Assembly: GCA_903838415.1 (NCBI GenBank) | Contig: CAILYI010000109.1 | Location: 62,001-126,000 of the forward strand | Length of the DNA: 64,000 bases | Direction of reading: 5' to 3' | Origin: an uncultured Anaerolineae bacterium | GTDB lineage: Bacteria; Chloroflexota; Anaerolineae; Anaerolineales; Villigracilaceae | Part shown: piece after piece, positions 52,810-64,000 of the stretch | Numbering within the stretch: the first letter of the stretch is position 1 | Layout of the letters: each line of letters starts with the position of its first letter | Translations under genes and position numbers: made by a program | Notes under the pieces: generated by a model | Told to the model about the DNA's origin: nothing | Database searches by the model: none | The model's input: the letters and a program-made list of their open reading frames with translations, nothing else

Positions 52810-54588
52810 ATGAGCGAAAAGAAAATCGAAATCCCGGCAGCAATTGGTGTACGCGACCTGGCGCAGAAAATGGGCATCAGCCCAATTGATGCTATTAAGA
52901 AACTGATGGTCAACGGCGTGATGGCCTCCATCAATCAGACAATTGACTATGATACGGCCGCCATTGTCGCCGCCGAATTTGGTTACGAAGCCTTCCCAGA
53001 AGAACAGATTTCTGAAGAAAAAGAAGAAGCGGGTGAAATTCCGCTTTGGCGACAGAAGATTGCCAACGAAAAAACTGCCGACCTGGTCAACCGCCCGCCA
53101 GTCGTGACCATTCTCGGTCACGTTGACCACGGCAAGACCTCCCTGCTGGACGCCATCCGTCAAACGGAAGTGGCCGCGGGCGAGGCAGGCGGAATCACCC
53201 AGCACATCGGCGCTTATCAGGTGGAAAAAGAAGGCCGCCTGATTACTTTCCTGGATACTCCCGGTCACGCCGCATTTACCGCCATGCGCGCCCGCGGCGC
53301 CCAAGGCGCGGATATTGTAGTACTGGTGGTGGCAGCGGATGACGGCGTCATGCCGCAAACGCGCGAAGCCATCGCACATGCCAAGGCTGCCCGCGTACCG
53401 ATGATCGTGGCCCTTAATAAGATCGACAAACCCAACGCCAATCCCGACCGCGTGAAGAATCAATTGGCCGAACTGGAACTGGTCCCGGATGAATGGGGCG
53501 GAAATACGATCGTTGTGCCAGTTTCTGCCAAGCAGAAAAAGGGCATTACCGATTTACTGGCCTCCATTTTGCTGGTGGCCGATAGCATTGAAATCCGCGC
53601 CAACCCGCAGGGCAAAGTAATCGGCACGGTGATTGAAGCTGAAGTGGATAAAACCAAAGGCGTGATGGCCAGCTTGCTGGTGCAGAACAGCACCTTAAAA
53701 AACGGCGCGGTCGTCGTGGCTGGGCTTTCCCAAGGACGCATCAAGGCCATGTACGATTACAAGGGTAAACCCGTACAGAAGGCTGGCCCATCCATACCAG
53801 TGGAAGTGTTGGGGATGAATGCAGTCCCATCCGCTGGCGAAATCTTCGAAGTGGTGGAAAGTGAACGCGTGGCGCGTGAAATTGTGTTGAAGCGCCAGGA
53901 AGCGATGAAGAACCAGGTCACCTCGGCCAAGATGTCGCTCGAGGACCTGTTTGCCAGGTTCAAGGCCGGTGAATTGAAGGAACTGCGCCTGATCCTGAAA
54001 GCTGACGTGCAAGGTTCGCTGGAACCAATCGTCAAGGAAATCAACGAGCTGGCCAAGACCAACAGCTCCGAAATCGCCATCAAGGTTTTGCACGCCGAAA
54101 CCGGCAACATCGGCGAAAACGACGTCATGCTGGCTTCAGCCTCGAAAGCGATTTTGATCGGATTCAACGTCCAGGCCGAAGTGCCCGCCCGCAGGCTGGC
54201 CGAGACCGAAGGCGTCTCCATCCGCATGTACGACATCATCTATCGCCTGACTGAAGATATCGAAAAAGCCCTCAAGGGTATGCTCCAGCCGGAATTCATC
54301 GAGAAACACATCGGCAAAGCCCAGGTGCTGGCGGTCTTCCCGATTTCGAAAGTCGGTAAAATTGCCGGATGCCGCGTGCTGGAAGGCGAACTCCGCCGCA
54401 ACAGCAAAATCCGCCTGACGCGCGGTAACGATATTGTCTTTGAAGGGGAAGTTGCCTCGCTCAGACATGAAAAAGAAGATGTGCGCGATATTCGCGCTGG
54501 TTTTGATTGCGGCATCGGCTTGAAAAACTTCAACGACCTGGTCGTTGGTGACATGCTCGAATGCTACAGCCTGGAAAAAACAGGTTGA
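52810..54588 (+). CDS. infB: Translation initiation factor IF-2, short form
   Basis: 592 residues, short compared with E. coli (890) but near the Thermus size. One IF2N helix bundle (about 8-60), then the GTPase domain with G1 GHVDHGKT, G3 DTPGH and G4 NKID, domain II (about 280-380), domain III and C-terminal domain with fMet-tRNA-binding C2. It brings initiator tRNA to the 30S subunit. GGAGG lies 7 nt before the ATG. Confidence 0.97.
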
Positions 54589-54617
54589 TTGACATAATCA
54601 GATAAATGTTGTACGAT
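54589..54617 (+). promoter_or_regulatory. Internal promoter upstream of rbfA
   Basis: TTGACA (54589-54594), exact 17-nt spacer, TACGAT (54612-54617). It would start a second transcript for rbfA and the genes after it. Confidence 0.7.
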
Positions 54618-54629
54618 TTATTTACAGTC

Positions 54630-54661
54630 TCAGGCTGTTCCCTATTGACGGAGCAGCCTGA
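54630..54661 (+). other. Leader hairpin before rbfA
   Basis: TCAGGCTGTTCC / GGAGCAGCCTGA pair over 12 positions (one wobble) around an 8-nt loop. It begins 6-7 nt after the predicted start of the internal promoter, and no T-run follows, so it is a 5' UTR structure rather than a terminator. Confidence 0.65.
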
Positions 54662-54678
54662 CCAAATGGAACAAAATC

Positions 54679-55032
54679 ATGCCAAGTGGCGTTCGTTTAC
54701 AAAAAATTGCAGATCGCATCCGTGATGAAATCTCGGATATGTTGATTAAGGAAATTAGCGATCCGCGCCTGCACAATGTCTATGTGACGGATGTGCGCGT
54801 TGACAGGGAACTCGCCTACGCGGATGTTTACGTTTCAGCGGTTGAAGGCAAGTCCCGCGCCACCGAAATTGTGCAGGGCATGGAAAGCGCCGGTGGTTTT
54901 CTACGCCGCAATCTCACCACCCGCGTGGAATTACGTACCTTTCCACGCCTGCGCTTCCACTGGGACCCGACTCCGGAAAATGCAGACCACATCGAAAAAA
55001 TCCTGGCACAACTGCGGGAAGAAAAGAAGTAA
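54679..55032 (+). CDS. rbfA: Ribosome-binding factor A
   Basis: 117 residues. KH-like fold typical of RbfA: RLQKIADRIRDEISDMLIKE, VYVTDVRVDRELAYADVYVS, and the C-terminal LRTFPRLRFHWDPTPENADHIE. It is needed for maturation of the 30S subunit. The gene has its own promoter and leader hairpin. Start ATG 54679 follows a purine-rich stretch without a clear Shine-Dalgarno sequence. Confidence 0.93.
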   Translation: MPSGVRLQKIADRIRDEISDMLIKEISDPRLHNVYVTDVRVDRELAYADVYVSAVEGKSRATEIVQGMESAGGFLRRNLTTRVELRTFPRLRFHWDPTPENADHIEKILAQLREEKK

Positions 55033-55098
55033 AAACACCATCCCGGTCAAAGCGCTCAGGGCAGCGCGAAAGCCAAAGTTCAGGAGTTCCCAGTACGC

Positions 55099-56049
55099 AT
55101 GAATACACTCGACGCAGAAATTAATGCCAAAATAAACTCTGCGAAAAACATTCTCATTGTTTCCCACGTCCGCCCGGATGGAGATGCCATCGGTGCCCTG
55201 CTCGGCCTTGGATTGGCCTTGCAACAGGCAGGCAAATCTGTCCAAATGGTGCTGAATGATGGCCTTCCGGCCTCTTTCCGCCACCTGCCCGGCAGCGATC
55301 AGATCAAAAAAATTCTACAGGGTGAACCTGATCTGTTCATCACGGTGGATTGCGCCGATTTCAAGCGTACCGGAAAACAATTCGAGAACTTCCGCAAACC
55401 CGATATCAACATCGACCATCACGTCACCAATGAAAATTTTGGGACGTTGAATTTGGTGGAACCTGAATCAGTGGCGACTTCCGCAGTTTTGACGGATCAT
55501 CTGCCGCTGTGGGGCTTCGAAATCACCCCGGAAGTGGCCGCCAACCTGGCCACCGGCATTGTGACCGATACCCTGGGATTCCGCACATCGAACACCACAT
55601 CGAAAGCCCTGCGACAAATGGCGCTGCTGATGGATACTGGCATCAACCTGCCCGAACTCTATAACCGCGCACTCGTCAGCCGCTCATTTTCGGCGGCGCG
55701 CTATTGGGGAGCGGGACTTTCCAGCCTGAAAACGCTGGATGGCATGGTTTACGCCACCCTGCGCCAGGTGGACCGCAAACAGGCCGGTTATGGCGGCAAT
55801 GACGATGCCGACCTGATCAACGTCATATCTGCCATTGAAGACCACACCGTCGGCATGATTTTTGTCGAACAGCGCGATACCGTCAAGATTTCGTGGCGCG
55901 CGCTCCAACCAGGGGTGGACGTTGCGCAGATCGCCAAGTATTTTGGCGGCGGCGGACATAAGGCAGCAGCCGGAGCAGATATTTCTGGCACCATGGAAGA
56001 AATTCAACCGCGGGTTTTACAGACCACGCGTGAAATGCTAAATCTTTAG
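55099..56049 (+). CDS. nrnA: DHH-family nanoRNase / pAp phosphatase (NrnA-like)
   Basis: 316 residues. Motif I SHVRPDGDAIGALLGLG, motif II VDCADF, the DHH motif NIDHHVTNENFG, motif IV GIVTDTLGFRTSN, and C-terminal DHHA1 domain with YFGGGGHKAAAG. Such enzymes degrade oligoribonucleotides and dephosphorylate pAp. Located between rbfA and truB, its common place in many bacteria. The gene starts 66 nt after rbfA. Confidence 0.92.
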   Translation: MNTLDAEINAKINSAKNILIVSHVRPDGDAIGALLGLGLALQQAGKSVQMVLNDGLPASFRHLPGSDQIKKILQGEPDLFITVDCADFKRTGKQFENFRKPDINIDHHVTNENFGTLNLVEPESVATSAVLTDHLPLWGFEITPEVAANLATGIVTDTLGFRTSNTTSKALRQMALLMDTGINLPELYNRALVSRSFSAARYWGAGLSSLKTLDGMVYATLRQVDRKQAGYGGNDDADLINVISAIEDHTVGMIFVEQRDTVKISWRALQPGVDVAQIAKYFGGGGHKAAAGADISGTMEEIQPRVLQTTREMLNL

Positions 56050-56065
56050 GGGGCAGGAGAATATT

Positions 56066-56986
56066 ATGGACAACCAGGATCTCAAAAACGCAATATCCGG
56101 TGTGCTCGTGGTCGATAAACCAATCGGCATGACCTCGCACGATGTGGTCAATACCGTCCGATTCGGCACCGGCATCCGCCGCGCCGGGCATACCGGCACA
56201 CTTGACCCGCGCGCTTCCGGCGTACTGGTCATCCTCGTCGGCCCGGCGGTTCGTTTAAGCGAATACGTCTCCGCTTCAGACAAACGCTACCAGGCCATTA
56301 TCCGCATGGGCGCCTCCACCGACACATTTGATGCCGATGGGCGATTCACCCAGCAGACCAGTGTCCCGTTCAATATTAGCGAAAGCCAGTTCGAGGAAAC
56401 GCTCAAACAATTTGTCGGCGAAATCGAACAGACTCCCCCACCCTACAGCGCCGTCAAAGTGCGCGGACGCCGCGCCTATGATATGGCCCGCAAAGGCGAG
56501 GAAGTGGAACTGGCTCCGCGCAAAATCAACGTCTACCACCTCGAAGTGCTCGAATGGGCGCCCCCCGAAGCGGTCGTGGATGTGCACTGCTCCTCGGGCA
56601 CCTACGTCCGTTCCCTGGCCAACGACATGGGCAACGCCCTGGGCTGTGGCGGCTACCTGGTGGGCCTGCGCCGCACCAAGAGCGGACGCTTCAGCCTGCG
56701 CGACGCCACCCCCCTGCGCAAGCTGCAGGAAGCCTTCCGCGCTGGCAACTGGTACCAATACCTGATTCCCGCCGCTGAAGCCCTGGGCGATTGGCCCGCC
56801 ATCGAACTCGACCCGGATACCGTCGAAAACGTCAAGCACGGACACCGCATCCCCGCCGACCCGGCCGACAAGCCCGGCATTAACAACCTCGTCCGCGGCG
56901 TCAGCATGGCCGGAGAACTGGTAGCGCTGATGGAACTCGATCCAACCACCAGCGAATGGCAGCCCAAGAAAGTCTTCTTTTCATAA
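56066..56986 (+). CDS. truB: tRNA pseudouridine-55 synthase TruB
   Basis: 306 residues. Catalytic motif GHTGTLDPRASGVLVI with the Asp that attacks the base; N-terminal VVDKPIGMTSHDVVNTVR and YSAVKVRGRRAYDMARKGEEVEL are typical. A C-terminal domain follows. It makes pseudouridine 55 in the tRNA T loop. Starts 17 nt after nrnA. Confidence 0.95.
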   Translation: MDNQDLKNAISGVLVVDKPIGMTSHDVVNTVRFGTGIRRAGHTGTLDPRASGVLVILVGPAVRLSEYVSASDKRYQAIIRMGASTDTFDADGRFTQQTSVPFNISESQFEETLKQFVGEIEQTPPPYSAVKVRGRRAYDMARKGEEVELAPRKINVYHLEVLEWAPPEAVVDVHCSSGTYVRSLANDMGNALGCGGYLVGLRRTKSGRFSLRDATPLRKLQEAFRAGNWYQYLIPAAEALGDWPAIELDPDTVENVKHGHRIPADPADKPGINNLVRGVSMAGELVALMELDPTTSEWQPKKVFFS

Positions 56987-56993
56987 CCATTTC

Positions 56994-57022
56994 GTAGGGG
57001 CGCAGCAATGCTGCGCCCCTAC
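56994..57022. repeat. Perfect 13-bp palindrome between truB and ribF
   Basis: GTAGGGGCGCAGC / GCTGCGCCCCTAC with loop AAT, lying 8 nt after truB and 11 nt before the ribF ATG. No T-run follows, so it is not a normal terminator. GC-rich palindromes of this kind are often dispersed repeats. Confidence 0.85.
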
Positions 57023-57033
57023 CCGTCCAGCCT

Positions 57034-57951
57034 ATGCCCCAACATTATCACACCCTCGAAGCCGCCCACCTGACCGGCACATGGCTCACAATCGGCGTAT
57101 TTGACGGTGTCCATCGCGGCCACCAGGAAATCATCCGCCAACTAACGGCAGGCGCCCACGCCAACGGCGCGCCTGCCGTTGTGCTTACCTTCACTCCGCA
57201 CCCGGCCAACGTCCTGGCCGGACGCGACCTGAAATGCATTAACACGCCCGAAGAACGCGCCGAAATCATGTTCAACCTGGGCATCGACGCCGTCATCACG
57301 CTGCCGTTCACGCATGAACTGGCCGAACACAGCGCCGAAGATTTCATGTCTACGCTCAAACGGCATCTCGGTCTGAATAAACTGCTCATCGGATACGATT
57401 TCGCCCTCGGCAAAGGCCGCGCGGGGAATTTTGAACGCTTATCCTACATCGGCCAAACATTGGATTATGACGTCATCGCCGTGGAAGCCATCCGCTTAAA
57501 CGATGACATCATCTCTTCAACCCTGATCCGTCAAAAAATTGCCGATGGAGCTGTGGCTTTGGCCGCCATTAAATTGGGCCGCTACTACTCCGTCACGGGA
57601 CCCGTAATCCCCGGCGATGGGCGCGGACGCACGATTGGCATTCCCACCGCCAATGTAGATGCCCCTGCCGAGAAAGTAATCCCATTAAACGGCGTCTACG
57701 CCTGCTGGAGCGTGGTCGACGGGAAACGGCACCTGGCCGTTGTCAATATCGGCGTGCGCCCCACCTTCACCGCTGGAGAAGTGCTCCCCCGCATCGAAGC
57801 CCACCTGCTGGAATATTCATCTGATTTGTACGGAAAAAATGTCACGCTGGAATTCGTCGAACGCCTGCGCGGCGAGCAAAAATTTTCATCGGTGGAAGCC
57901 CTGGTCAGCCAGATCCAAACCGATATCGAAACCGCCAAAACATATCTGTAA
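57034..57951 (+). CDS. ribF: Bifunctional riboflavin kinase / FAD synthetase
   Basis: 305 residues. FAD synthetase domain first: TIGVFDGVHRGHQEIIRQL (the nucleotidyltransferase HxGH-like region), VLTFTPHPANVL, and GYDFALGKGRAG. Riboflavin kinase domain after about residue 185: GPVIPGDGRGRTIGIPTANV. It makes FMN and FAD from riboflavin. The truB-ribF neighbourhood is conserved in many bacteria. The ATG lies close to the palindrome, with no clear Shine-Dalgarno sequence. Confidence 0.94.
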   Translation: MPQHYHTLEAAHLTGTWLTIGVFDGVHRGHQEIIRQLTAGAHANGAPAVVLTFTPHPANVLAGRDLKCINTPEERAEIMFNLGIDAVITLPFTHELAEHSAEDFMSTLKRHLGLNKLLIGYDFALGKGRAGNFERLSYIGQTLDYDVIAVEAIRLNDDIISSTLIRQKIADGAVALAAIKLGRYYSVTGPVIPGDGRGRTIGIPTANVDAPAEKVIPLNGVYACWSVVDGKRHLAVVNIGVRPTFTAGEVLPRIEAHLLEYSSDLYGKNVTLEFVERLRGEQKFSSVEALVSQIQTDIETAKTYL

Positions 57952-57955
57952 ATAA

Positions 57956-57980
57956 AGAGACCGCCGAATTGGCGGTCTCT
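57956..57980. terminator. Bidirectional terminator between ribF and the ABC permease gene
   Basis: AGAGACCGCC-GAATT-GGCGGTCTCT, 10-bp perfect stem, followed by TTTTC on plus and TTTATTT on minus. Separates convergent genes. Confidence 0.9.
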
Positions 57981-58003
57981 TTTCAATTTCAATGCTACGG
58001 ATT

Positions 58004-58933
58004 TTATCCGCCGTGCACCAAGCGCGGATCCAAAACGTCACGCAGACCGTCGCCGATCAGGTTGAAAGAAAGCACGGTCATCATGATCGCAAACCCGGGG
58101 AAAAAGACCAGGAAGGGCGCGTTGAAAACGCTGTTGCGTTCCTCACCCAGCATCAAGCCCCATTCGGGGGTGGGGAATTCTGCGCCAAGCCCCAGGAAGC
58201 TGAGGGCCGCTGCGCTCAGAATGGCGGAAGCAATTCCCAGCGTGCCCTGGACGATCAAGGGGGTAAGCGCATTGGGCAGAATACGGGTAAATAAGACCCG
58301 CAAATCAGAAGCCCCTTGCGCCTTGGAAGCCATGACGTAATCCAATTCCTTGATAGAGAGCACACTCGCGCGTACCACGCGCGCAAATATTGGAATCTCA
58401 ATAATGGCAATCGCCAACAAGGCATTAATCAGCCCCGGGCCGAGTACCGAAACGATCGCAATCGCCAGCAGCAGGCTCGGGAAAGCCATTAAAACATCCA
58501 GCGTTCGCATGATCAAGTCATCCAGCCAGCCGCCCACAAACCCGGCGACCGCACCCAACATGCCACCAATCACAATCGCGAAGGTCACCGTGGCAACACC
58601 AACCTGCAACGATAATCGTGCACCAAAAATGATACGGGAAAACAGGTCGCGGCTGTTGCCATCGATTCCCATAAAATGTTCGGGTTGATCCGCCGGACAG
58701 CCCAAGAGATGGATACAGGGCAGAGATCGACGTTTGACTTCTTTCAATTGGATAATCGGATCAAATGGCGCAATCTGTTCGGCAAATATCGCACAGATAA
58801 TCAGAATTCCCAATAGAACCATGCCCAATTGTGCCGAGCGGTGCTGGAAAAGGCGCCGTGCCATAATCACATAAGGATTATCACGCTGGCGCATGGCATC
58901 AGCGGAAAGAACTGGAACTTCGTTTTCACTCAT
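58004..58933 (-). CDS. Peptide-type ABC transporter permease, DppC-like
   Basis: 309 residues with six membrane segments and an N-terminal OppC-type arm. The ABC-permease coupling motif is ASKAQGASDLRVLFTRILPNA (about residues 204-224, with the conserved Gly and Pro). FMGIDGNSRDLFSRIIFGARLSL is the family signature before the second segment. Its start follows the DppB-like stop by 1 nt. The ATPase genes that would complete the transporter are not next to it. Confidence 0.92.
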   Translation of the reverse strand: MSENEVPVLSADAMRQRDNPYVIMARRLFQHRSAQLGMVLLGILIICAIFAEQIAPFDPIIQLKEVKRRSLPCIHLLGCPADQPEHFMGIDGNSRDLFSRIIFGARLSLQVGVATVTFAIVIGGMLGAVAGFVGGWLDDLIMRTLDVLMAFPSLLLAIAIVSVLGPGLINALLAIAIIEIPIFARVVRASVLSIKELDYVMASKAQGASDLRVLFTRILPNALTPLIVQGTLGIASAILSAAALSFLGLGAEFPTPEWGLMLGEERNSVFNAPFLVFFPGFAIMMTVLSFNLIGDGLRDVLDPRLVHGG

Positions 58934-58934
58934 G

Positions 58935-60011
58935 TTATTTCACCCTGACGCGCGGATCCAGGTAGGCATACGAAGCATCCACGATAAGATTCGAAAAAAC
59001 GAAAATCAACGCAACCACTACGGAAAAACCCTGCACAACCGGATAATCGCGATTGAGAATTGCTTCCACCATGCGCGAGCCCACGCCGGGCAGGGAAAAA
59101 ATCGTTTCAGTCAAAACCGCGCCCGAGAGCAACCCACCAGTCTGGATACCGATGATGGTCACGATCGGAATCAGGGCGTTGCGCAGCGCATGTTTACGAA
59201 TTACCAGCGCATATTTCAAACCCTTGGCACGGGCAGTGCGGATGTAATCCTGTCCAAGCACTTCCAGGAGAGCCGAGCGGGTCATACGGGCAATCACCGA
59301 TAGGGAAATGGTGCCAACCGCGATTGCAGGCAGAATCAGGTGCTTAAGCGCATCCAGGGTCAGGGCATAATTGCCGGTAATCAGACCGTTCAGGATCGCA
59401 GAATTGGAAAGCAAGGAAGTAAAAAAGAGTTTGGCGCCGGTGGCATCCTGCATACCCCAGGTCTTTATCAGCGGAACAATTGACATCCCGGCTGTTAAAC
59501 GACCGCTCGGCGGCAACTGCAGCGGTGTTCCCTTGAACACAATGGCAAATAAATATGCCAGCAGCAGCCCTAACCAGAAGACCGGCATGCTGACGCCCAT
59601 ATTGGCCCCCAGCATGGTAATAGTATCAATAAAACTATTGCGATTGAGCGCAGAAACGACGCCCAAAATAATGCCGAAGGTTGAAGAAAAGATCATTGCC
59701 AGGATGGTCAATTCAATGGTCATCGGCAGGCGTTCGCTGATGATCAGGGTGATCGGGCGGCGATCCTTGAGCGAATTGCCAAAGTCGCCCTGGGAAATGT
59801 TGGCGGCATAACGGATAAATTGCTCGGGGATGCTTTGATCCAAGCCGAAGCGCGCCCGAAACTCCCGGCAGCTCTCTTCGGTGGCGTGTTCACCGAGCAT
59901 CACATAGCATGGGTCACCTGGGACCAGCCGCGTAATAATAAATGTAACCAGCAGGATACCAACCAGGACGGGCAGAACCAGGAAAAGTCTACGCACCAGG
60001 AATTGTGCCAT
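58935..60011 (-). CDS. Peptide-type ABC transporter permease, DppB-like
   Basis: 358 residues from ATG 60011 (GGAG 8 nt upstream; an in-frame extension upstream is rejected). Six membrane segments; N-terminal signature ARFGLDQSIPEQFIRYAANI, coupling motif RTARAKGLKYALVIRKHALRNA, and GGLLSGAVLTETIFSLPGVG near the C-terminus, all as in DppB/OppB. It lies 75 nt after the binding-protein gene. With DppC it forms the membrane pore. Confidence 0.93.
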   Translation of the reverse strand: MAQFLVRRLFLVLPVLVGILLVTFIITRLVPGDPCYVMLGEHATEESCREFRARFGLDQSIPEQFIRYAANISQGDFGNSLKDRRPITLIISERLPMTIELTILAMIFSSTFGIILGVVSALNRNSFIDTITMLGANMGVSMPVFWLGLLLAYLFAIVFKGTPLQLPPSGRLTAGMSIVPLIKTWGMQDATGAKLFFTSLLSNSAILNGLITGNYALTLDALKHLILPAIAVGTISLSVIARMTRSALLEVLGQDYIRTARAKGLKYALVIRKHALRNALIPIVTIIGIQTGGLLSGAVLTETIFSLPGVGSRMVEAILNRDYPVVQGFSVVVALIFVFSNLIVDASYAYLDPRVRVK

Positions 60012-60086
60012 GCAAAGCGCTCCAAAGATGGAATTAAGGGATGGAGCATGGTTGCCCATGCTCCATCCGAAGTTACTGTAGTTCGA

Positions 60087-61811
60087 TTACTCGGCGGGCT
60101 GGTTCAGGACTTTTGGACCAAGCAGGTCTTTGAAGTACTGGAAGGCGCCGGTGTTGCCCTTGCGCAGCGGGTACTTGTAATCCAGACCGATGCTAAAGCT
60201 GGCGACCACATCATTGGCGTCCAGTTTCGAGCCGTTCGAGAAGACAACACCCTTCTTCAAAACGCAGGTCCATTCGGTGGCGTCGGCGTTGCCGGTGCAG
60301 CTTTCGGCCAGGTCGGGTTCCGCAACGGAGGTGGTGGTGAAGGTGTAGAGTTTGCTGAAGACCAGGTTGCAGGCGCGGAAAGAGTTGCCGTCGGTTTCGT
60401 CAGCGCAGGTCAACGAAACGGGTTCGCCATCCTGCGAGAAGACTACGGTGCCATCAGCGGTCTTCATCAGCTTGAAGTTTTCGTTGTAGGGGCCAAGCAC
60501 AACATTTTCGACGCTGGCCAGGTAGGCCTGGTTGACTGTGCCGTGCGCGATGACAATGTTCGGGACGTGCTGAGCATACAGCTTGTTGACTTCGTCATAC
60601 ATCTTCTGGCGTTCGACTGGATCGCCGGACTTGCCAGCCTTGGCGATCAGATCCATCATATCCTGGAAGGGATTGCCGAAGGATTTGCTGGTGCCCATCA
60701 GGAAAACATCGTACCAGTTGGTCGCATCCGGGTAGTCTTCGCTCCAACCGAGGAAGAACAGTTCTTTCTTGCCGTCGCGAGTCGCGGGCAGATAAGTGGC
60801 CCATTCTTCCATTTCCAGCTTGATTTTGATGCCAGATTCGGCCAATTGCGCCTGGACGGCCTGGGCGATCTTGGTCGGCTGCGGGAAGTACGGGCGGGTG
60901 CGTTCAGCGTACGAGAGGGTATATTCTTTGTTGAAGTCGAAACCTTCGGCCTTCAGCATTTCGATGCCCTTGGCAGTATCATAAGTGGTGTCAACGTAGC
61001 CATCGGTGAAACCGGGCTTGACGCCAGCCGGAACAAACTGGGTGGCAGCCACAGAGCCGGGAGCGTAGAAGTCATCCACGATCTTCTGCTTGTTGATCAG
61101 CATGGCCAGGCCCTGGCGGACTTTTTCGTTGTCCCACGGAGCAATGGCGTTGTTGATGCCCAGGTAGAGGAAGTTGTTAATCTTGCGCGGGGCCAGCTGA
61201 AGGTTGGCATCCGCCGAGATGGTGGACAAGTCATCAGCCGTCACTTCGGCGATACCGCTGACGTTGCCGGACTGCAGGTCAAGCAAACGCGCAGCCGCTT
61301 CCTTGTTCCACTTCAGGATGAAGGTGGAGTTGGCGGGCTTGGTACCAAAGTAAGTGGGGTTGGCTTCGAAGGTGATGTGATCGCCGCGGACCCATTCCTT
61401 GACGATGTAGGGGCCAGTACCGATCGGGTTATCGTTAATCTTGACCGCGTCGCCGCCGGTTTCCTTCAGGTAGTCTTCGTCGAGAATGTCGAAGGCTTCC
61501 ACCGAGCCCACCTTCGCAATGAAGGCCGGTTCAGGGGCGCAGAAGCTGAACTTAACGGTCAGTTCATCAACGGCTTCGATCGACTTGATATTGCCACCGT
61601 AATTGCAATCGGGAGCAACCAGGCTCTCGCCTACGAAAGCGGGAGCAGCCGGGGCTTCAGTCGCAGCGGGGGCGGCGGGTGCTTCAGTCGCGGCCGGGGC
61701 AGCGGGAGCAACCGGGGCTTCAGTGGCGGCCGGGGCGGGAGTGCCGCAGGCAGCCAGTACCATGCTCGCCAAAATGAGCATGGACAGTACTACATAAATA
61801 CTACGTTTCAT
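60087..61811 (-). CDS. ABC transporter substrate-binding lipoprotein, SBP_bac_5 family, circularly permuted
   Basis: 574 residues with AGGAGG 7-9 nt before the ATG. Lipobox LAAC with Cys22, then a TEAPAAPA-type linker (28-58). Compared with DppA the order of segments is swapped: residues 75-455 match the middle and end of DppA (IKSIEAVDELTVKFSF, NPIGTGPYIVKEW, NEKVRQGLAMLINKQKIVD, FLGWSEDYPDATNW, PNIVIAHGTV), whereas residues 465-562 match the N-terminal segment (LVFSKLYTF, EPDLAESC, TCVLKKGVVFSNGS, LDANDVVASFSIGLD, GAFQYFKDLL). The old N- and C-termini are joined near TADGTVVFSQDGEPVSL. Cys pairs near 91, 469, 481, 505 and 516 may form disulphides. First gene of the transporter operon. Confidence 0.9.
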   Translation of the reverse strand: MKRSIYVVLSMLILASMVLAACGTPAPAATEAPVAPAAPAATEAPAAPAATEAPAAPAFVGESLVAPDCNYGGNIKSIEAVDELTVKFSFCAPEPAFIAKVGSVEAFDILDEDYLKETGGDAVKINDNPIGTGPYIVKEWVRGDHITFEANPTYFGTKPANSTFILKWNKEAAARLLDLQSGNVSGIAEVTADDLSTISADANLQLAPRKINNFLYLGINNAIAPWDNEKVRQGLAMLINKQKIVDDFYAPGSVAATQFVPAGVKPGFTDGYVDTTYDTAKGIEMLKAEGFDFNKEYTLSYAERTRPYFPQPTKIAQAVQAQLAESGIKIKLEMEEWATYLPATRDGKKELFFLGWSEDYPDATNWYDVFLMGTSKSFGNPFQDMMDLIAKAGKSGDPVERQKMYDEVNKLYAQHVPNIVIAHGTVNQAYLASVENVVLGPYNENFKLMKTADGTVVFSQDGEPVSLTCADETDGNSFRACNLVFSKLYTFTTTSVAEPDLAESCTGNADATEWTCVLKKGVVFSNGSKLDANDVVASFSIGLDYKYPLRKGNTGAFQYFKDLLGPKVLNQPAE

Positions 61812-61886
61812 GGGTTCTCCTCCTGAGAGAATTGAGTTGGAGTGATGGACGAAAAGCGAATTATCAACGATCCTGCAATCTCGTCC

Positions 61887-61926
61887 AGCATCCGATTCTA
61901 GGATGCTGTTTGATTATACAGCATCT
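61887..61926 (-). promoter_or_regulatory. Three alternating inverted-repeat arms upstream of the binding-protein gene
   Basis: Arms A CAGCATCC (61887-61894), B GGATGCTGT (61902-61910) and C ACAGCATC (61919-61926): B can pair with A or with C, but not both. On the minus strand TATAAT (61919-61914) lies between B and C, so the B-C pair brackets a possible -10 box. This could be an operator or a switchable RNA structure. Confidence 0.6.
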
Positions 61927-61934
61927 TTTGACCA

Positions 61935-63047
61935 TTAATAAACCGGCAGAGGGATTCCAACTCCGTTTATTGTCACATCCCTGGGATTTTCCGGCCAAAT
62001 TCCTGCCACCTTTGTCCCGCACGAGGGACAGGTGCCATCTTTGGTCAGGCGATACTCGCTGATGACATAGCCATGACGGCGAATCAACGCCCGGTTGCAG
62101 TGCGGACAATGGGTATTTTCGTACTCTTCCACTCTGCCCGGCAAATTCCCGGCGTAGATGTAATGCAAACCGGCCTCGCGCCCAATTTCGGCAGCGCGCA
62201 GCAGCGTTTTGGATGGAGTATTCTCCGGGGTGGTCATTTTGTAGTCTTTGTGAAAAGCCGTCACATGCCAGGGAATATCCGCTGAAACGGACTGCAGAAA
62301 GCGCGCGGTTTCAAACAATTCCTCGTTGCTGTCGTTGAATCCGGGCACCACCAGCGTCACCACCTCCACCCACAGCCCCAGCGCGTACGCTCTTTGGATG
62401 GTATCCAGCACGTTTTTGAGCACGCCCCCCAAAGAGCGGTAGTTTTTCTCCTGCATGGACTTTAAATCGACCTTGTAGGCGGAGAGATAAGGCCTGAGAT
62501 ACTCCAGCGCCTCGGGCGTGGCGTTCCCATTCGAGACGAAAGCGCACATCATCCCGGCAGATTTGGCTTCCTTGAAAATCGCCACGGCCCACTCACTGGT
62601 AATCAATGGTTCGTTATAGGATGAAACCACGACTTCGGCATGCGCACGCCGAGCGGTTTTGATGATTTCCGCTGGGCTGATTGGACGCACCAGATTGACC
62701 GCCACTTCAGAAGCCGAGTCGCGCAAAGCCTGAGATGTCAGCCAGTTCTGGCAATAGCCACAATGGAAGTCGCAGCCCAGCATCCCAAACGTCAGCGCCG
62801 TGGCACCCGGCAAGACGTGCGCAAAGGGTTTTTTCTCAATCGGATCAGATTGCAGTCCGGCCACGTAACCCCAGGGCACACGCAACGTTCCATCCCTGTT
62901 CAGCCGTACCAGGCAAATGCCACGTTTTTCAGGAGCAATCTTGCAGCGATGGGCGCAGGCCGAACAGCGCACAACATCATCAGGTAGTTTTTCAAAAAGT
63001 TCCCCCTGGGCGGTCAGACCATCCAAGACATTGGCCAGGGCTATCAT
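61935..63047 (-). CDS. amrS: AmmeMemoRadiSam system radical SAM enzyme (AmrS)
   Basis: 370 residues from ATG 63047 (GGAGG then GCAGGTA); an in-frame extension upstream overlaps the divergent gene and is rejected. N-terminal zinc-like CSACAHRCKIAPEKRGIC, the radical-SAM cluster motif GCDFHCGYCQNW (CxxxCxxC), and a C-terminal zinc ribbon (HCPHCNRAL and CPSCGTKVAG). AmrS usually works with AmmeMemo proteins (Memo and AMMECR1-like), which are not seen in this window. Substrate unknown. Confidence 0.9.
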   Translation of the reverse strand: MIALANVLDGLTAQGELFEKLPDDVVRCSACAHRCKIAPEKRGICLVRLNRDGTLRVPWGYVAGLQSDPIEKKPFAHVLPGATALTFGMLGCDFHCGYCQNWLTSQALRDSASEVAVNLVRPISPAEIIKTARRAHAEVVVSSYNEPLITSEWAVAIFKEAKSAGMMCAFVSNGNATPEALEYLRPYLSAYKVDLKSMQEKNYRSLGGVLKNVLDTIQRAYALGLWVEVVTLVVPGFNDSNEELFETARFLQSVSADIPWHVTAFHKDYKMTTPENTPSKTLLRAAEIGREAGLHYIYAGNLPGRVEEYENTHCPHCNRALIRRHGYVISEYRLTKDGTCPSCGTKVAGIWPENPRDVTINGVGIPLPVY

Positions 63048-63082
63048 TACCTGCCTCCAGGTTTCAATCTTGCTTGTTGCCT

Positions 63083-63094
63083 TATAATATGAAC
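63083..63094 (+). promoter_or_regulatory. Leaderless promoter of mobA
   Basis: TATAAT (63083-63088) ends 6 nt before ATG 63095; an ATG at 63089 directly touches the -10 and is a less likely start. No Shine-Dalgarno sequence is present, and the -35 is weak. Confidence 0.55.
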
Positions 63095-63712
63095 ATGCTA
63101 ACCGTTGCCATCCAGGCTGGCGGCGAATCACGCCGCATGGGACAGGACAAAGCGCTGCTGCCGTTTCTCGGCCAGCCGCTGATTGCGCGCGTGGCCGCGC
63201 GCATGGCGTCCATCGCGGATGAGGTCATCGTCACCACCAACCGCCCCGACGCTTACGCCTTTCTGGGATTGCCGCTTTTTGCGGATCAGCGCGCGGGACG
63301 TGGGGCTTTGGGCGGGCTGTATACTGCGCTGCAGGCAGCCCGCCAGCCGCTGGTGGCGGTGGTGGCTTGCGATATGCCCTTCGCCAGCCCGGAGCTGCTC
63401 GCTTTTCAGGCCCGGGTGCTGGAAGCCGAAGCCGTTGACGTTGTGATCCCGTTCGTTCAAGGCGTCGACGGTGGTTCCGGTGGCTACGAGCCGTTACACG
63501 CGGTTTACCGTCGCGAAACCTGCCTGCCAGCCGTGGAACAAGCGCTGGATAGCGATCAGTGGAAGGTCATTGCGTGGTTTTCGAAAGTCAGGGTGCGCGC
63601 GCTAACGGAAGAAGAATGCCGCGTTCACGATCCGGGCGGATTGGCGTTTGCCAATGTCAATACGCCGCAGGAATTATCAGAAGCTGAACAAATGGCGCGA
63701 GGCGAGGGATAG
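63095..63712 (+). CDS. mobA: Molybdenum cofactor guanylyltransferase (MobA)
   Basis: 205 residues from ATG 63095 (two codons shorter than the ATG at 63089). Nucleotidyltransferase motif IQAGGESRRMGQDKALLPFLG at the start, then VTTNRPDAYAFLGLPLFAD, VACDMPFASPELLAF with the metal Asp, and ANVNTPQEL near the end. It adds GMP to molybdopterin to make the guanine dinucleotide cofactor. It diverges from amrS and converges with the UspA gene, with 1 nt between stops. Confidence 0.9.
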   Translation: MLTVAIQAGGESRRMGQDKALLPFLGQPLIARVAARMASIADEVIVTTNRPDAYAFLGLPLFADQRAGRGALGGLYTALQAARQPLVAVVACDMPFASPELLAFQARVLEAEAVDVVIPFVQGVDGGSGGYEPLHAVYRRETCLPAVEQALDSDQWKVIAWFSKVRVRALTEEECRVHDPGGLAFANVNTPQELSEAEQMARGEG

Positions 63713-63713
63713 A

Positions 63714-64000
63714 TCAGCGCACAATCAGCACCGGGCACGGCGCGTGGCTGACCACTTTCTGGCTGGTACTGCCCAACAATAGTCCACCCAGGGTGCTCAT
63801 GCCGCGCGAACCCATCACAATCACATCTGAATGGCGAGTATTGGCCACTTCGATGATGGCTTCAGCGGGGGAACCTTCAAGCAATTCTGTGTGGATTTCG
63901 CCGGGAATTTCGCCAACAGCTTTTATGGAAGCCTGCAAAATTTCTTCAGCTTCCTTCAAACGTGCATCAAGGGCGATCTGCATATTTGGTTCACCAAGAA
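63714..64000 (-). CDS. Universal stress protein (UspA family), N-terminus beyond window edge
   Basis: Partial gene: about 95 codons are open to the right edge, and no stop precedes the in-frame ATG at 63983, so the true start is probably outside. The C-terminal half has the UspA ATP-binding motif G-x2-G-x9-G-S in MGSRGMSTLGGLLLGSTSQ, then VVSHAPCPVLIVR, and the preceding SDVIVMGS strand. A full UspA domain is about 140 residues. It binds ATP and is induced by stress in model species. Confidence 0.88.
   Translation of the reverse strand, partial: LGEPNMQIALDARLKEAEEILQASIKAVGEIPGEIHTELLEGSPAEAIIEVANTRHSDVIVMGSRGMSTLGGLLLGSTSQKVVSHAPCPVLIVR

Follow-up and report, generated by a model that had tools for sequence, protein, structure and literature searches.

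In the E. coli DppABCDF system, residues R383 and D436 of the binding protein DppA (PDB 1dpp) are described as salt-bridging the two ends of the bound dipeptide and, after its release, E41 and R42 of the scoop loop of DppB (PMC12136057). For natural permutation of binding proteins, the literature we searched held one clear prior case, a sugar binder: Treponema pallidum Tp0684 (MglB-2; TpMglB-2), a functional, permuted sugar-binding lipoprotein of an ABC importer, classed as 'Type Ic / Cluster Bc'. Its authors propose the subscript c for the permuted subclass and raise the possibility that anchoring to the membrane favours such topologies (PMC4990184). In the open-licence literature, with subscription journals mostly outside the scope, our searches turned up no description of a permuted SBP_bac_5 protein; PMC2588589 contains both terms, in passages unconnected with one another.

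Here we analysed a 64,000-nucleotide stretch of DNA (the window) encoding a 574-residue protein that is very probably a circularly permuted, lipid-anchored peptide receptor of the DppA-like branch, serving DppBC. It resembles E. coli DppA (PMC12136057) in its homology over both pieces, in both ligand residues and in the neighbouring dppB and dppC genes, but its pieces are swapped, it is a lipoprotein, and its new N-terminal segment is conserved and contains one of a pair of covarying Cys residues. With TpMglB-2 the likeness is one of kind only (a natural permuted binding lipoprotein that is cut in the N-lobe and has a family of relatives); TpMglB-2 has a class I, cluster B sugar-binding fold of another superfamily, is cut elsewhere, and its permuted part is not homologous (PMC4990184). 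Type Ic denotes a class I sugar-binding fold, and the window protein falls outside it, the sole Pfam family reported at an E-value of 0.01 being SBP_bac_5. By the usage of the TpMglB-2 authors it would be a permuted cluster C protein.

Gene layout and order of the SBP_bac_5 parts

The gene lies on the minus strand, with the following features in window coordinates:

61811 down to 60087, minus: permuted SBP gene, a single ORF with ATG start, 574 aa
61817..61824, minus: ribosome-binding site AGGAGGAG, read from the sequence, 5' of the ATG
61746..61811, minus: signal peptide and presumed lipobox (residues 1-22, LAA-C), from the sequence
61632..61745, minus: low-complexity linker, residues 23-60, with TEAPAAPA repeats, from the sequence; linkers of relatives are comparable
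61590..61631, minus: new N-terminal segment, residues 61-74, including Cys69, from the alignment of relatives
60462..61589, minus: old middle and C-terminal piece, residues 75-450, from phmmer and profile (14-390 to canonical 122-494)
60894..60896, minus: Arg306, the aligned equivalent of E. coli DppA R383 (dipeptide carboxylate)
60735..60737, minus: Asp359, the aligned equivalent of E. coli DppA D436 (dipeptide amino group)
60114..60461, minus: old N-terminal piece, residues 451-566, placed last, from profile (391-506 to canonical 5-119)
60087..60113, minus: new C-terminal tail, residues 567-574, and stop codon, from the sequence and the alignment of relatives
58935..60011, minus: dppB-like permease, its start probably an internal ATG of the 60059 ORF
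58004..58933, minus: dppC-like permease (BPD_transp_1, OppC_N), from domain matches
57951..57980, minus: intrinsic-terminator-like hairpin and T-rich tract 3' of dppC, read by eye from the sequence

The linker is rich in Pro, Ala, Thr and Glu, and the LAAC preceding it is what we take, by its pattern, to be the lipobox. The permuted gene is followed by dppB and then dppC; among the ORFs listed for positions 54000-64000 no ATPase gene stands beside these three, and dppD and dppF are absent from the operon. Directly upstream on the same strand, a gene at 61935-63131 (minus) has a product that is presumably radical-SAM-like, with no evident link to peptide uptake.

A first-pass annotation of this DNA had described one 574-residue frame with a ribosome-binding site, and indeed the ORF is preceded by AGGAGGAG at 61824-61817. 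It had also set lipobox and linker before the new N-terminus, as LAAC and the linker do come first in the sequence, and had called the protein the only binding protein in the operon, which fits the dppB and dppC genes that follow. It mentions neither the minus strand nor the frequent fusions, nor the likely second permuted family of this genome, nor the Treponema precedent.

Several comparisons gave the same order of parts. The Pfam profile SBP_bac_5 (PF00496) matched with 244.1 bits (gathering cut-off 32.4) in two stretches which, in gene order, correspond to profile positions 61-366 and then 3-52, a non-canonical order. In a phmmer search of PDB sequences, E. coli DppA 152-526 aligned with residues 75-444 at 152.7 bits and DppA 29-153 with residues 454-570 at 21.4 bits, weak if taken alone; this is the reverse of the normal order. 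When the single E. coli DppA sequence was replaced by a doubled one, an alignment that the first-pass annotation had proposed, the Smith-Waterman score rose from 421 to 522, a gain of 101, and module residues 18-514 of the tested part aligned in one piece with positions 124-633. Shuffling the tail 200 times gave a mean gain of 2.7 and a maximum of 28, and two canonical proteins, from Thioclava and Deinococcus, gained 0.

We also compared a profile of 33 permuted relatives with a canonical profile of 16 proteins using hhalign. Permuted columns 14-390 aligned with canonical 122-494 (E 1.6e-93) and columns 391-506 with canonical 5-119 (E 2e-31, over 114 columns), and on a doubled canonical profile both merged into one alignment, 14-506 to 122-616, with a score of 945 versus 707 on the single profile. 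The controls were three OppA-type proteins that also belong to the canonical profile, so they show only that the ordinary order brings no gain. Because the Pfam parts are swapped and a single alignment is obtained only on the doubled profile, the 574-residue protein is, as far as sequence comparison can tell, a permuted subclass of SBP_bac_5/cluster C, homologous to its ordinary members without being one of them. Domain tools call such proteins ordinary SBP_bac_5 and miss the order, a caution for annotation.

The chain would have its old N- and C-termini joined at about residue 450 and would open in the segment after a YEYF-like motif, which would leave the fold as it is and move the lipid anchor to another corner. 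We take the site of the permutation to lie in the N-lobe. These positions agree with the first-pass annotation, which had joined the old ends near residues 450-470 and put the new ends after the YEYF-like segment; its borders for the two pieces, 75-455 and 465-562, lie within about 15 residues of ours (75-450 and 451-566).

Structure models, a check that the first-pass annotation had proposed, were considered as proof of the permutation and rejected. A single-sequence model reached a pLDDT of 35.5, and a model from an eleven-row alignment was of low quality (mean pLDDT 58.7, pTM 0.49). With Foldseek, the top matches of the latter were DppA-type chains at TM-scores of only about 0.35, and VIA-align covered approximately residues 35-372 of the module, with the moved tail outside. 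Given these poor models and the uncovered tail, we did not use them as evidence for a permuted fold.

Relatives and ancestry

Whole-length relatives occur in four independently assembled MAGs from lake samples (La Plata, Umea), with best-segment identities of 91, 89, 74 and 68%, and the permuted order is also carried by four one-contig genomes (G010, G027, G228, G351). Across 33 aligned relatives the joint and the new ends are conserved. In the window's class, 248 of 396 genomes matched at 1e-30, a count that includes canonical proteins; among the matches listed, the best rows were collinear over almost the whole query. A probe of 187 residues across the joint was then run against 400 genomes drawn from Chloroflexota at a threshold of 1e-12, a search for the joint segment having been suggested by the first-pass annotation. 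It matched in 62 genomes. In 56, including the window's own, the match was collinear through the joint (from query residue 16 or earlier), and in 6 further genomes it began at residue 64 or later and covered the old N-terminal half only, as expected of canonical proteins. The 56 joint-positive genomes divide into 32 of the window's class and 24 of other Chloroflexota classes, so the earlier hunch that similar orders exist in other Chloroflexota was right, and the distribution is wider than it had supposed. Outside Chloroflexota, the range was covered by one genome-contig scan for close relatives and a plasmid collection (25 of 2988 records listed). Scans of viral contigs gave two loci, L076 and L166, neither of which was used as a permuted relative.

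That two pieces of a canonical gene had been joined by an assembly or annotation artefact might be suspected of a draft genome with 311 contigs and 8.63% contamination. Yet the same order at whole length in four independent assemblies, the 56 of 400 genomes matching across the joint and the joint and new ends shared by 33 aligned relatives reduce this explanation to a practically negligible one. The whole-length relatives and the joint probe likewise bear out the first-pass view of a whole gene rather than a broken fusion and, together with the profile alignments, its view of a circularly permuted SBP_bac_5 protein. It is also very improbable that the C-terminal piece is an unrelated or separately acquired lookalike of the DppA N-terminus, a caution which the TpMglB-2 authors raised for their own protein (PMC4990184). 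Such an origin could explain why the old N-terminal piece alone scores just 21-25 bits against E. coli-type DppA, and why the corresponding pieces of canonical relatives are closer to each other than to the moved piece. Against it stand the profile-profile match of 2e-31 over 114 columns, an identity of up to 39% with the N-terminus of the canonical Chloroflexota proteins L114 and L115, and the one alignment that both pieces give on the doubled profile.

For the ancestry of the permuted proteins, we built a tree of 72 rows, among them 42 permuted modules and the Bacillota protein L108 (see below), all re-set into canonical order. This was a quick tree with SH-aLRT support alone and a midpoint root, and several canonical rows were long-branched. 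All 42 permuted rows fell into one clade (SH-aLRT 100). This clade is nested in a set of 51 rows (SH-aLRT 97), the other nine being canonical proteins from Chloroflexota and Deinococcus, and E. coli DppA is placed just outside the set. The nearest unpermuted kin, canonical SBP_bac_5 proteins of Chloroflexota (L114-L116, L111-L113), contain the same two matching pieces but in the ordinary order, with the old N-terminal part first. A single origin of the window's permuted family is the simplest reading of this tree. Most likely the permutation arose once, in an ancestor within Chloroflexota, tandem duplication followed by loss of the outer parts being the probable route.

Conserved residues, neighbouring permeases and fused forms

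Conservation extends to the new ends and to the ligand residues. Most rows share Cys-x-Tyr-Gly-Gly in the new N-terminal segment, and a G-x-(L/F)-N motif is conserved at the very end of the new C-terminus. Among 110 distinct modules, Cys69 and Cys91 covary: 100 have both, 9 have neither and 1 has a single one. The same holds for Cys469 and Cys481 (both in 99, neither in 7, one in 4) and for Cys505 and Cys516 (both in 44, neither in 66, one in 0). These pairs would form three disulfides, of which Cys69/Cys91 would pin the new N-terminus. Residue 306 is Arg in 106 and residue 359 Asp in 108 of the 110 modules.

Of 102 permuted ORFs, 78 are immediately followed by a DppB-like ORF, and several permuted loci also carry dppD and dppF. 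For the remaining 24 no DppB was in range, and many such loci end early; at L061 and L062 no dpp genes were found within the fetched 9-10 kb. Among the neighbouring DppB proteins (62 distinct, including the window's), 61 have Glu at position 41 and all 62 a basic residue at position 42. The window's own DppB has the scoop-loop pair E-H versus E41-R42 in E. coli, the second residue being His rather than Arg. We suggest that a di- or short peptide would be bound between Arg306 and Asp359 and handed to the adjoining DppB/DppC permease by docking to its kept scoop-loop acid-base pair, with ATPases presumably supplied from elsewhere in the genome. The match to the DppA equivalog NF043070 (178.2 bits) is far below the curated cut-off of 1005, which leaves room for a ligand other than a dipeptide.

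The permuted module also occurs at the C-terminal end of larger lipoproteins, which carry one or two further binding domains. In L061 and L063 Pfam found SBP_bac_3 ahead of the module; both L064 proteins have Peripla_BP_6 (two copies in the one of 1336 residues), and the 1132-residue L068 protein has both families. In 30 further proteins chosen for long open frames, SBP_bac_3 was found in 24 and Peripla_BP_6 in 5, the remaining one being L196; given this choice, these counts are no fusion rate. With blastp, an SBP_bac_3/Peripla_BP_6-type domain was present in 39 and absent in 71 of the 110 distinct modules, a set with the same long-frame bias. On one FastTree the fused state changed 11 times. 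As a rough control, among the PF00496 matches listed for 41 genomes, the open frame reached at least 760 in 8 canonical rows (of about 145) and in 3 permuted rows (of 5), canonical frames being judged by length alone. The N-terminal parts of L003, L055 and L044, the last with a lipobox inside its long frame, had been candidates for pieces of other binding proteins; Pfam gave only SBP_bac_5 in all three, and they were not counted as fusions.

At two loci (L068:864-8016 and L069:120-6326) dppB and dppC come after the fused gene, followed by genes for a polar amino acid permease and a GlnQ-like ATPase, all on one strand; in NCBIfam these importer genes score strongly, yet under the equivalog cut-offs. 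The natural reading is that one anchored chain would serve two importers. GlnPQ with its tandem substrate-binding domains is similar in that two binding domains per polypeptide serve import, but there both are fused to one permease (PMC8025302), whereas the permuted family joins different SBP families in one lipoprotein chain, which at two loci is encoded next to permeases of two kinds. In L196:1127-4366, a 1080-residue ORF combines caspase-like and FHA domains and a possible membrane helix with a permuted module at its end.

Such architectures raise the question of whether the module feeds a permease at all. As a sensor or adhesin, it would owe to the permutation its freedom to be fused as a C-terminal extracellular module, and the SBP_bac_3 and Peripla_BP_6 fusions, the caspase-FHA ORF and the absence of dpp genes from the fetched stretches of L061 and L062 would all be in line with this role. 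We nevertheless consider it unlikely, given the DppB-like gene that directly follows in the window and after 78 of 102 permuted ORFs, and the conserved ligand and scoop-loop residues. A peptide receptor for DppBC remains our preferred reading, and its new anchor point may bring an advantage.

Other permuted or probably permuted SBP_bac_5 proteins

Two further proteins bear on how often the order has been changed. L108:2851-4641 (OY725879.1, Subdoligranulum, Bacillota) encodes a permuted OppA-type SBP_bac_5 lipoprotein, whose cut lies roughly where that of the window protein does and which scores 326 on single versus 460 on doubled E. coli DppA. In the tree it groups with OppA-type proteins, the nearest being an Acetoanaerobium protein with 46% identity, and placing it inside the permuted family was rejected (p-AU 2e-55, quick tree). 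Hence the same cut was probably made twice, in the window's family and in L108, the second case resting on a single record.

The other, CP2, is encoded at L145:9112-11658 on contig C279 of the window's own genome. This 848-residue lipoprotein has an extra C-terminal stretch, and its gene is followed by two permease genes. SBP_bac_5 profile positions 148-356 come first and 19-150 later, so the cut differs from that of the window protein, and a probe across the stretch between the two Pfam parts matched in 107 of 396 class genomes. With hhalign, CP2 6-317 aligned with canonical 205-477 (E 8.4e-17) and the moved part, 459-510, with 69-120 (E 2.6e-4, probability 42%). The moved Pfam stretch scored 33.2 bits against the cut-off of 32.4, and Smith-Waterman gains on 14 doubled references amounted to 10 points with DppA and 0 to 3 with the others. 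No canonical relative of CP2 was found by blastp at 1e-4 among the collected loci. As its moved part matches canonical proteins weakly, we hold CP2 to be a likely second permutation, with another cut, in the same genome.

Tentatively, and at somewhat under an even chance, permutation could have arisen repeatedly among SBP_bac_5 proteins, and to their benefit, in at least three separate events (the window's family, CP2 and the Bacillota OppA-type protein). The new N-terminus would put the module after other binding domains, so that one lipid-anchored chain could collect for two ABC importers, as L068 and L069 suggest; once, the module might have become the outer sensor of a transmembrane caspase-FHA protein. 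A large permuted branch of peptide-binding proteins, together with its canonical kin, multi-receptor fusions and a probable repeat event, makes the link between topology, anchor and docking testable.

Adjacent pairs of permuted genes, as tandem duplication leaves them, are present at L121:3538-6967, L122:3926-7338 and L064:1906-9279. L123 and L124 encode divergent permuted proteins with Pro/Ala/Ser-rich C-terminal tails, next to which a canonical SBP_bac_5 gene lies on the opposite strand.
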